Source of the DNA: a virus
Reading direction: 5' to 3' (one strand)
DNA: 31,009 nucleotides
Virus record (IMG/VR): IMGVR_UViG_3300032282_003975
Location: 1-31,009 of that record
Shown: in pieces, positions 22,859 through 28,294 of the stretch
Numbering within the stretch: position 1 is the stretch's first letter
Layout: each line of letters opens with the position of its first letter
Made by a program: the position numbers and the translations under genes
The notes under the pieces: model-generated
The model's input: only the letters and a program-made list of their open reading frames with translations
The model's database searches: none
Told to the model about the DNA's origin: nothing

Positions 22859-23620
22859 TTACCCGTCATAATTGTTTTTAGTCCAAAGCTCAATTTCTTT
22901 GAGTTGGATACTTAAATTGACATTTGTTGGTGCACCATTTCTGAAAAAAGAAGGTCCACCAGCTCCTGTATAATCAGCTTGTACAGAAATTATAGCACAA
23001 GGTTTAAACTTGAATGTAAAATATTCGCTAGGATGTATTTGTGGGAATACTATTGTAGGATAATCATATATTGGACCATATTGTTTAGGTAAAGCATAAT
23101 ATTTAAAAAGATTTACCACTTCCCTTAACGTTCTAGATTCAGCTTCATTATTTGGTGTTAATGTCCAAGTTAATGTGTGCTCTTTAAATGAAGGAGATTT
23201 AAACTGCATAAACAAAAATGGGTTCATCGCATATCCAGTCAACGGTCCTAAAGCATCAGCTGCCAATCCCATGCTTTGTGCAACTCCGCCAAGTCCAGCA
23301 CCATTCATACCTTGAGCAGCTAACTGTGTACCCGAAGTTTGGTCCCAAACAACGGTTTGAACATCATTTATCTTCTTAGGTACAGGTAAATATATACTAC
23401 CAGAAGGAGTGTATGATGTTTGTAATCTTGTACCAGCAACCCTATTGATCAAGCTTGCGATTCCACCTACAGCAGCTCCGAAAGTAGTTTGTGATCTATA
23501 GTCCATGAAGTAAAAAGACATAGAAAAATTTCTAGAACCAACCATCAAATCGTTAGGAAAAGAATAATTGTTCTTTGGTCTAGATGGTGGTAAAGGTACA
23601 TTTGAATCTGGTATTGGCAT
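22859..23620 (-). CDS. gp48: Baseplate tail tube cap gp48
   Basis: The C-terminal half has the gp48 pattern: GYAMNPFLFMQFKSPSFKEH-TLTWTLTPNNEAES, then YFTFKFKPCAIISVQADYTG and FFRNGAPTNVNLSIQLKEIE. The length (253 aa) is shorter than T4 gp48 (364 aa) but normal for marine T4-like phages as I remember them. gp48 tops the baseplate hub and starts the tail tube together with gp54. It is the first gene of the minus-strand structural block; the start has AAGG 6 nt upstream and a GATAAATA motif 36 nt upstream. Confidence 0.85.
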   Translation of the reverse strand: MPIPDSNVPLPPSRPKNNYSFPNDLMVGSRNFSMSFYFMDYRSQTTFGAAVGGIASLINRVAGTRLQTSYTPSGSIYLPVPKKINDVQTVVWDQTSGTQLAAQGMNGAGLGGVAQSMGLAADALGPLTGYAMNPFLFMQFKSPSFKEHTLTWTLTPNNEAESRTLREVVNLFKYYALPKQYGPIYDYPTIVFPQIHPSEYFTFKFKPCAIISVQADYTGAGGPSFFRNGAPTNVNLSIQLKEIELWTKNNYDG

Positions 23621-25257: not shown

Positions 25258-25965
25258 ATGCCATTACCGAAGTTAGATTATCCTATGTATTCTATAAAAG
25301 TTCCTTCTATGAAAAAGGAATATTCTTTTAGACCATTTTTAGTTAAAGAAGAAAAACTTCTATTGATGGCAAAAGAAAGCGAAGTATCTGCTGAAAGTTT
25401 ATCTGCAATTAAACAAGTCGTAAACAACTGTTTGATAGATAAACTTGATGTCAATAAGATGACTGTTTTCGATTTAGAATACGTATTTTTAAAATTAAGA
25501 GCAGTTTCTGTAGAAAATAAAGTTAAAGTTTCTTATAAAGATTTTGAAGATGACAAATTGTATGATTTCGAAGTAGACCTAAATGATGTTGAAATTACTT
25601 ACCCTGAAAAGAAAGATAATATCATAAAAATAAACAAAAATTCAGGTTTGACTATGATTTATCCTTCTGCTTCTTTATATGACGATAAAGAATTTTTAAC
25701 TTTAGAAAAAGATCATATGTTCGAATTGATTATCAGATGTATTGAGAATATTTTCATCAATGACGAAATTTACAAACCAGCAGATTATTCGAAAAAAGAT
25801 ATTGAAGAATTTTTAGAGAATTTAGATGTTAAAACCTTTGAAAGCATAAACGAATTTCTATTGAATGCACCTAAAATCGAACACACCTTAACATATACGA
25901 ATTCTTTGGGCAATGAAAGAAAAATAGTTTTGAGTTCGTTAAATGATTTTTTTACCTTGCGCTGA
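25258..25965 (+). CDS. gp26: Baseplate hub protein gp26 (with frameshift extension)
   Basis: The 235-aa product begins MPLPKLDYPMYSIKVPSMKK then EYSFRPFLVKEEKLLLMAKE, the T4 gp26 signature. GGAG lies 8 nt before the ATG. Middle blocks are INKNSGLTMIYPS and EFLTLEKDHMFELIIRCIEN. The gene ends NDFFTLR with TGA at 25963-25965. A seven-T run lies at 25947-25953 in frame T TTT TTT, followed by a stem-loop, and the -1 frame stays open for 60 more codons, so a 292-aa longer form is predicted. gp26 belongs to the hub assembly pathway. Confidence 0.88.
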   Translation: MPLPKLDYPMYSIKVPSMKKEYSFRPFLVKEEKLLLMAKESEVSAESLSAIKQVVNNCLIDKLDVNKMTVFDLEYVFLKLRAVSVENKVKVSYKDFEDDKLYDFEVDLNDVEITYPEKKDNIIKINKNSGLTMIYPSASLYDDKEFLTLEKDHMFELIIRCIENIFINDEIYKPADYSKKDIEEFLENLDVKTFESINEFLLNAPKIEHTLTYTNSLGNERKIVLSSLNDFFTLR

Positions 25966-26016
25966 ACCATAATAATTTAGAGAATTACTACACAACAATA
26001 TTCTCTTTGGTTCAGC
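25947..26016 (+). promoter_or_regulatory. Predicted -1 programmed ribosomal frameshift signal
   Basis: The slippery run TTTTTTT (25947-25953) is read as T TTT TTT in the gp26 frame. A 7-nt spacer follows. Then GCTGAACCA (25961-25969) pairs perfectly with TGGTTCAGC (26008-26016), and inside it AGAGAAT (25979-25985) pairs with ATTCTCT (26000-26006). The gp26 stop TGA lies inside the first stem arm. Slippery site, spacer and stem are in the normal geometry for -1 frameshifting. Confidence 0.8.
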
Positions 26017-26135
26017 ACCATAAATATTCTATAAGTGATATTGAAAATTTAATGCCCTTTGAAAGAGACATTTATGTTGATATGTTAGTCGCACACCTTA
26101 AGAAAATAGAAGAAGAAAGAAATAAAGGTAACTAA
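25947..26135 (+). CDS. Start-less -1 frame extension of gp26 (gp51 position)
   Basis: From the slippery site the -1 frame runs without a stop to TAA at 26133-26135. Frameshifting would add 60 residues (YLALNHNNLENYYTTIFSLV, QHHKYSISDIENLMPFERDI, YVDMLVAHLKKIEEERNKGN) after F232. No ATG precedes the NLMPFER methionine, so it cannot be a normal independent gene. The sequence is well formed (two helices, charged tail) and its stop overlaps the next ATG as TAATG, which a random frame would not do. In T4 the gene after 26 is 51, a hub assembly catalyst; equivalence is by position only. Confidence 0.75.
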   Translation, partial: FFYLALNHNNLENYYTTIFSLVQHHKYSISDIENLMPFERDIYVDMLVAHLKKIEEERNKGN

Positions 26136-28294
26136 TGGCATCTCAGGATAATAGCATAGCCCAAGCTTTGGGTAAACATGTTTCTAATTTAGGGAGCACA
26201 GTTGGTGCTTTCAGAGATGCTGCTAACAAGCAAAATAGTTCTGTTGGTAAAATCGTAAAAGATATTGGTTCTGTTTTATCCAATAACAAATCTAATATGG
26301 ATGAACTGAACTCAACTATTTCTACACAAAGTTCTTCTATAATTAATATGTCTTCTAAAATTGATGGTTTGAATAATATATTTCAAACATCTCTTAATGT
26401 TCAACAAAATATGTTATCAACTTTAAGAGATATCAAATCAGCAATAGAATCTAGCAGTAAAGAAGGTAATAAAGAGGGTGGAAATAGTGGTGGCGCTAGT
26501 TGGGCTTCTAAATTAATTACTGGCGGTAAAAACTTTGTAGGAAGTACGGTTGGTAAATACGCTTTAGGTGGCGCTGGGTTATTAGCAGTAGGTGCTGGTG
26601 TTGGAGCTGGTGCTACTATGAATGATAGAAGAGGACCAGGCGGTCCATTAACTAATGGTGGTGGTCCAGCATTAGATCCTAGCAGATTTCAAGATCCAAA
26701 ATCAAATACTGATGATATAAACGAAAGTGTTTTGAAAAGATATGAAGGTAGACAACTACCAGCTTCTATAAGATTAAACAATATGGGGGCTATGAGTATA
26801 GGCAATAATGGCAGAAATGATTTTGTTCAAAATATGCCAGGTTATGTCGGTATGACTCCAAGACCAGCAAATGAGGGTGGCTTTTACGCACAGTATGCTA
26901 CACCTGTTCATGGTGTAGCTGCAGCTAGTAAAAATTTAGAAAATTACGGCCAAAGAGGGGTTGACACGCCTGACGCTATAGTTGCGAAATGGACTACAGG
27001 AAAACCAAACCCAACATATTCAGCAATGCTACAAAAATATTTGGGAGAAGGTGTTACTGGTTCTACAAAATTAGATCTTTCTGATCCTATGATTAGAAAG
27101 AAAATTCTTATGGCAAAATCTGAAGTTGAATCTGGTGCTGGTCAACCAGTGTATAAAGAACATGTATATGATAGAGGTGTTCAGGGAGATTTCACTCAGG
27201 TTAAAGCTGGTGGTACAAATACAAATCAAGCTTCAGCTGCAGCTCCTAAAGCAGCATCAGGAACACCAGCACCTGGACCTTCAGGCGGTGCTCAACAAAA
27301 TCAAGAGCCTGTTTCTCCTGGTTTAGGTCAGCAACAAGGCGGTAATACTGCAGCTTTAGCGAAATACAACCTCAAAGACCCTTCTGCGGTAGAAGGAATG
27401 AAACCTGATTTTGCATCGAAACTTAGTGCATTTTTACAAGCTGCAGAGCAAGCTGGTAACCCGATTAATATCAAATCTGGTTACAGAACTGAAGAAAGAC
27501 AAGCTCAGCTTTATAAAGCAGCAGTGCAGAAATATGGTAGCGAAGAAGCTGCACGTAAATGGGTAGCTCCTCCTGGTCAATCAAACCATAATAAAGGTTT
27601 AGCTGCAGATTTAGATTTCAGTTCTGAACAAGCTAAACAATGGGCGCATTCGAATGCTAACAAGTTTGGCTTAAATTTCCGTATGGCTCATGAAAATTGG
27701 CATGTAGAACCAGCTGGTTCTTTTGGTAATGAGGGTGGAGAAAGAGGTATCGGTTCTCAAAAGCCTGGTTTCGGAAACGAAGGTGGCCCAAGTCAAGCTG
27801 GCGTAAGCGCAAGCCTTTCGCCCATGGAAGCTTCTATGATGAATAGATTTCATGGTGGTGGTATGGGAATGGGGGGCATGCCTATGGGTGGTATGGGAAT
27901 GACGCCTGGTATGGCGCTTGGTGGGATGGTCGGAGGGGGGCGAGGAGCAGCCATTGGCGGTTTAGCTGAAGCGTTGGTTGGTGGTATTGGATCATTGTTC
28001 GGAGGCGGTCCTGCGGGCGCGAGAGGCGTTGATCCTAGAACTTCAGCGCTGAATAATGACGCTGTTATGAGACAATCGAGCGAAGATAATGCTAGACAAG
28101 CAGCTGTAGAACAACAGCAAAATTCTAGAAATAATCAGCAAACTTCTGAAGGTCAAAGAGGGCAAAATGCTATGCCTTCTAACGGCTACAATGGCGCAAA
28201 TGATTTACGAGTTTCTGATAACTCTTTCTTTGGTGATCTTATGAAAAGCGGTATGTTTGCGGAACAAACAAAAAACCTCCAATTCTCAGCATAA
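26135..28294 (+). CDS. Tail protein with muramidase-like and M15 peptidase domains, 719 aa
   Basis: Domains in order: residues 1-110, Ser/Asn-rich helices and likely coiled coil; 142-160, a Gly/Ala hydrophobic segment that could cross a membrane; about 195-340, a phage muramidase-like domain (RLNNMGAMSIG, EGGFYAQYATPVHGVAAASK, LDLSDPMIRKKILMAKSE); 360-400, a Pro/Gln linker; about 410-527, an M15 (VanY-type) zinc peptidase with SNHNKGLAAD (H485, D492) and HENWH (E520, H523); then Gly/Met-rich and Gln-rich tails. It would cut both glycan and peptide bonds of peptidoglycan during DNA entry. The long helical start and its place after gp26 allow a tape-measure role. Confidence 0.8.
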   Translation: MASQDNSIAQALGKHVSNLGSTVGAFRDAANKQNSSVGKIVKDIGSVLSNNKSNMDELNSTISTQSSSIINMSSKIDGLNNIFQTSLNVQQNMLSTLRDIKSAIESSSKEGNKEGGNSGGASWASKLITGGKNFVGSTVGKYALGGAGLLAVGAGVGAGATMNDRRGPGGPLTNGGGPALDPSRFQDPKSNTDDINESVLKRYEGRQLPASIRLNNMGAMSIGNNGRNDFVQNMPGYVGMTPRPANEGGFYAQYATPVHGVAAASKNLENYGQRGVDTPDAIVAKWTTGKPNPTYSAMLQKYLGEGVTGSTKLDLSDPMIRKKILMAKSEVESGAGQPVYKEHVYDRGVQGDFTQVKAGGTNTNQASAAAPKAASGTPAPGPSGGAQQNQEPVSPGLGQQQGGNTAALAKYNLKDPSAVEGMKPDFASKLSAFLQAAEQAGNPINIKSGYRTEERQAQLYKAAVQKYGSEEAARKWVAPPGQSNHNKGLAADLDFSSEQAKQWAHSNANKFGLNFRMAHENWHVEPAGSFGNEGGERGIGSQKPGFGNEGGPSQAGVSASLSPMEASMMNRFHGGGMGMGGMPMGGMGMTPGMALGGMVGGGRGAAIGGLAEALVGGIGSLFGGGPAGARGVDPRTSALNNDAVMRQSSEDNARQAAVEQQQNSRNNQQTSEGQRGQNAMPSNGYNGANDLRVSDNSFFGDLMKSGMFAEQTKNLQFSA

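Follow-up and report, generated by a model that had tools for sequence, protein, structure and literature searches.

Introduction

Frameshifted tail assembly chaperones provide the closest described counterparts of the locus analysed here. In lambda G/GT and in other TAC-N/TAC-NC pairs (Xu, Hendrix and Duda, 2004, as cited in PMC10885494), the short chaperone gene has, close to its 3' end, a -1 slip that adds a C-terminal domain, which is also the layout of the present locus. Such signals have been attributed to T4-like phages as well. For T4-like phages with a short chaperone gene and a longer fused one, PRFect (PMC10885494) refers to Vladimirov, Gautam and Davidson (Virology 566:9-15, 2022), and PMC12846349 credits the same work with poly-T -1 signals in T4-like TAC-N genes. 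In view of these citations, the suspicion in the initial annotation that such a frameshift had gone unreported for a T4-type gp26 is not supported. Under the names gp26 and gp51, the frameshift was not found described in the literature searched, the full 2022 Virology paper aside. In T4 itself, gp26 and gp51 are listed as hub assembly chaperones, and gp51 is needed for assembly and absent from the final particle (PMC3004832).

The DNA under study is a viral stretch of 31,009 nucleotides (hereafter the window). Judged from its sequence and that of its relatives, gene 26 of the window would yield the short gp26 together with a minor gp26-gp51 fusion produced by -1 frameshifting, the two constituting a chaperone pair of the G/GT kind; the probability assigned to this reading is roughly 0.93.

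Organisation of the gene 26 locus

Unless stated otherwise, all features lie on the plus strand. The zero-frame gp26 gene (25258-25965) encodes the short form of 235 aa (27.6 kDa), which matches PF12322 (E=8e-53) and PHROG 150 (E=9.7e-59) and terminates at a TGA (25963-25965). Its 3' end reads GAT TTT TTT ACC TTG CGC TGA. The first T of the slippery heptamer (25947-25953) is the third base of the GAT codon, which places T TTT TTT in the -1 slippery register, and the -1 frame is closed by a TGA (25944-25946) directly before the slip site. Behind the site, the -1 frame stays open for 60 codons (25953-26135, stop TAA at 26133-26135), and this frame, which reads FFYLALNHNNLENYYTTIF..., carries the gp51-like C-terminal domain of PHROG 634, ‘baseplate hub assembly catalyst’ (E=1.1e-25). 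The tail alone is helical by prediction. Searches of Pfam and NCBIfam gave no family fitting the tail, a PDB search with its structure model returned no significant match, and an initial tail alignment proved too diverse for use as a search query.

Slippage at this site would give a predicted fusion of 292 aa (34.4 kDa) with the junction NDFFYLALNHN; in the window's phage, the predicted peptide IVLSSLNDFFYLALNHNNLENYYTTIFSLVQHHK would mark the fusion and IVLSSLNDFFTLR the short form. When the letters of the window were worked through afresh, the slippery phase of the heptamer, the upstream -1 stop, the TAATG leading onto the next gene and, by translation, the fusion length and junction peptide were all obtained as the initial annotation had given them.

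In-register TTTTTTN sites are rare, with only two in the 9132 codon positions of the window's genes. The second, T TTT TTC on the minus strand (22943-22949), lies inside a baseplate tail-tube-cap-like gene (22859-23620); as a frameshift site it was rejected, the -1 frame closing after 19 codons, and its occurrence is probably due to chance.

The ATG of the next gene (26135-28294) overlaps the tail stop (TAATG, 26133-26137). Its product of 719 aa bears a VanY peptidase domain (residues 422-519) and matches a tape-measure PHROG only through that domain. In relatives, the genes downstream of the tail mostly match families of unknown function. By position, the product fits a hub protein or enzyme, or else a tape measure.

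Conservation of the slip site among relatives

The tail was matched by tblastn in 560 phage records. The material examined, with profiles for gp26 and the tail, comprised some 20 phage records and roughly 240 loci from IMG/VR; the searches were seeded with tails of slip-bearing phages, and the set therefore leans towards such relatives. In each of the gp26+tail loci (259/259), an in-register TTTTTTN precedes the tail, which lies in -1 phase, and the sole other locus with both gp26 and tail is that of T4, where the tail is fused in frame, in gp51. The gp26 proteins of the surveyed loci reach down to about 28-35% identity with that of the window.

Removal of near-copies left 178 non-redundant loci, which still share kinship, so that counts over them are not independent trials. 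Their heptamers are TTTTTTT (103), TTTTTTC (70), TTTTTTA (3) and TTTTTTG (2). TTT serves as the first Phe codon in 178/178, as against 918 of 1358 (68%) elsewhere in gp26, and an in-register TTTTTTN occurs elsewhere in the gp26 of relatives in 11/34,846 cases.

Apart from the slip site itself, a Shine-Dalgarno-like (SD-like) AGGG/GAGG element stands 12-15 nt upstream of it in many clades, L011 and L010 being examples, and most of the window's clade lacks it. The motif may also reflect an encoded, conserved Glu-Gly-Leu. An apparent trade-off between this element and the hairpin described below (Spearman -0.33; Fisher p=0.002) was lost in phylogenetically independent pairs (median p=1) and was set aside.

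The downstream hairpin

Seven nucleotides past the slip site begins a 9-bp stem, with arms at 25961-25969 and 26008-26016 (GCTGAACCA / TGGTTCAGC), enclosing a predicted inner stem of 7 bp (25979-25985 with 26000-26006). The region, inner stem included, folds to -18.1 kcal/mol (z=-4.40), a stability reached by none of 200 shuffles; the spacer and both stems agree with those proposed from inspection. The mean downstream folding z is -2.43, compared with -0.37 in control gp26 stretches.

For the stem tests, the window's clade was defined as the 63 loci with a zero-frame stop 16 nt after the slip. In these, the outer stem is 91.5% paired, and both sides have changed at four of the nine pairs; the inner stem is weaker, with 71% of cells paired. 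Scored for covariation as a whole, the structure was matched by 0/500 shuffles and by no slid control. Furthermore, 79% of the clade's sequences form at least eight of the nine outer pairs, where a synonymous-codon null gives 6.5%. The outer stem is kept in the window's clade by compensatory changes, beyond coding constraint. RNAalifold gave no consensus structure over all 63 sequences and recovers the stem in the closest 8 to 30.

The stem also bears on an alternative in which RNA polymerase, instead of the ribosome, slips on the T run and so gives messages encoding the fusion. The resulting protein would be nearly identical, and runs of seven to nine T are present in 103/178 loci. Against this, 75/178 loci have six T only, and a covarying RNA stem lies downstream at the usual spacing. 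Moreover, the run begins at the third codon base in 178/178, a register needed by ribosomal slippage alone, albeit one that conserved Phe codons could also fix. Slippage by the polymerase is considered very unlikely.

Expression of the tail

Translation of the tail could also begin anew, through termination-reinitiation or at an internal start, and give a small free-standing protein in place of a fusion. Many records indeed annotate a standalone ‘baseplate hub assembly catalyst’, and certain relatives provide a plausible start for one: Cr30, rhizobial and KVP40-type loci (L011, L013, L015, L017) possess, in addition to the slip site, a -1-frame ATG overlapping the gp26 stop, and these phages may be able to reach the tail by either route. 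The Ackermannviridae-type relatives go further: their tail is still in -1 phase, the T-heptamer is missing, and an ATG overlaps the stop of gp26 as TAATG or TGATG (L270 around 1795-1812, L271 around 2001, L277 around 1200-1216, L278 around 1197-1213). Slippage is therefore not universal in the wider family.

In the window, by contrast, the candidate in-frame starts are a TTG at codon 21 (26007) and ATGs at codons 36 and 46, none of which could yield the complete tail because all fall within the conserved domain. The claim that the tail has no start codon thus fails in its strict form and holds in the sense that none gives the whole tail. Similarly, 65/178 relatives lack ATG, GTG or TTG within the first 20 tail codons, yet the residues ahead of any start are conserved as protein. 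When close relatives are compared, a single-base change in a tail codon is synonymous in 79% of cases if read in the -1 frame, in 14% if read in frame 0 and in 8% if read in frame +1; an excess at third positions is already evident in codons 3-12, ahead of most possible starts. Judged by this substitution pattern, the tail evolves as a protein in the -1 frame, under purifying selection. Production of the tail solely as a separate protein is, for the window, highly improbable.

A sequencing error or a decayed gene can be dismissed as vanishingly improbable: homopolymer runs are error-prone, but the arrangement recurs across many independent metagenomes and isolates (178 non-redundant loci, six-T runs included), and the tail is under purifying selection.

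The frameshift fusion also offers a reading of existing records. In those examined, the tail is either omitted or entered as a gene of its own, a ‘baseplate hub assembly catalyst’ whose start varies, where the evidence points to the end of a fusion. In the records of Syn33 (NC_015285), S-SM2 (NC_015279) and ACG-2014b (NC_027130), for example, the gp51-like tail is annotated with varying internal starts or left out; from their sequences, these annotations look like fragments of a frameshift fusion.

Proposed roles of the short and long forms

Under the frameshift reading, the majority of ribosomes on gene 26 would terminate at 25963-25965 to give the 235-aa gp26, while a minority would shift back by one base on T TTT TTT, aided by the hairpin seven bases downstream, and decode 60 further codons to give the 292-aa gp26-gp51 fusion. 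The two forms, with the N-terminal domain common to both, would act as lambda G and GT do, and the minor form probably uses its additional helical C-terminal domain to contact the tape measure or the hub during tail assembly. T4 and its close allies would produce the equivalent pair from the paralogous genes 26 (short) and 51 (long).

The slip site, the frame, the homology of the tail, the covariation of the stem and the T4 paralogy are read directly from sequences; from these we infer slippage itself, the proportion of the two products and their role as chaperones in the window's phage. The initial proposal of a programmed -1 frameshift analogous to lambda G/GT is, at this level, strongly supported by the conserved slip site, the frame, the tail protein and the clade's covarying stem. 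By analogy, the short and long pair most likely works like G/GT.

Structural comparison is suggestive. The gp26 model is confident (pLDDT 89), and among PDB entries it comes closest to the tail assembly chaperone of HK97, 2ob9, a weak hit (E=0.9, TM about 0.37 by target); 2ob9 chains rank 1 and 4 among 350,542, at E values (0.9-1.3) that are not significant. A PDB sequence search with the gp26 profile returned nothing useful.

Comparison with known systems

The phenomenon has largely been described before, and the window is a solid further example of an arrangement recurring across hundreds of T4-like phages; the tail itself is carried by hundreds of T4-like genomes, many of them cyanophages. 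Possibly new are the survey, the covarying hairpin, the occurrence of an SD-like element outside the window's clade and the departure seen in Ackermannviridae-type loci.

With respect to lambda-type chaperones, the likeness lies in the layout of the slip, whereas the window's gp26 has no significant sequence or fold match to them, HK97 2ob9 (E=0.9) being the nearest fold. The tail chaperone loci of Pakpunavirus Adele and of Andersonviridae, from phage families other than the window's, are likened to it by slip arrangement: a GTTTTT -1 slip has been proposed at the end of TAC-N, and the -1 frame is open and conserved ahead of the tape measure (PMC12846349).

With T4 gp26 and gp51, the window shares the protein family (PF12322; PHROG 150/634), the existence of short and long forms and the C-terminal tail domain. 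The two T4 proteins are paralogues (pairwise E 2e-6; both PF12322), and the tail is present in gp51 only, not in gp26, in T4, JS98, 44RR, ZZ1 and Klebsiella phage CP-p-KP-21068. A rapidly built tree, which contains long branches, places both kinds of gene, short and long, to the same side of a branch with SH-aLRT 90; this is consistent with, though short of proof for, a single duplication in the T4 lineage. The two forms of T4 are thus separate genes, 26 and 51, without a slip site, whereas the window has one gene with a slip site and hairpin.

Taken with the Ackermannviridae-type loci, these comparisons tentatively suggest, at slightly less than even odds, that T4-like phages have at least three coding strategies for the chaperone pair (slippage, two paralogous genes, and an overlapping start without a slip site) and, as part of the same reading, that the stimulator differs among slipping lineages, being a covarying hairpin in the window's clade and an SD-like element 12-15 nt upstream in others. 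The frameshift reading also ties T4 genes 26 and 51 to lambda's scheme of tail assembly chaperones, and a single pair reached through slippage, gene duplication or an overlapping start provides a setting in which to ask why two chaperone forms are made, and in what ratio.
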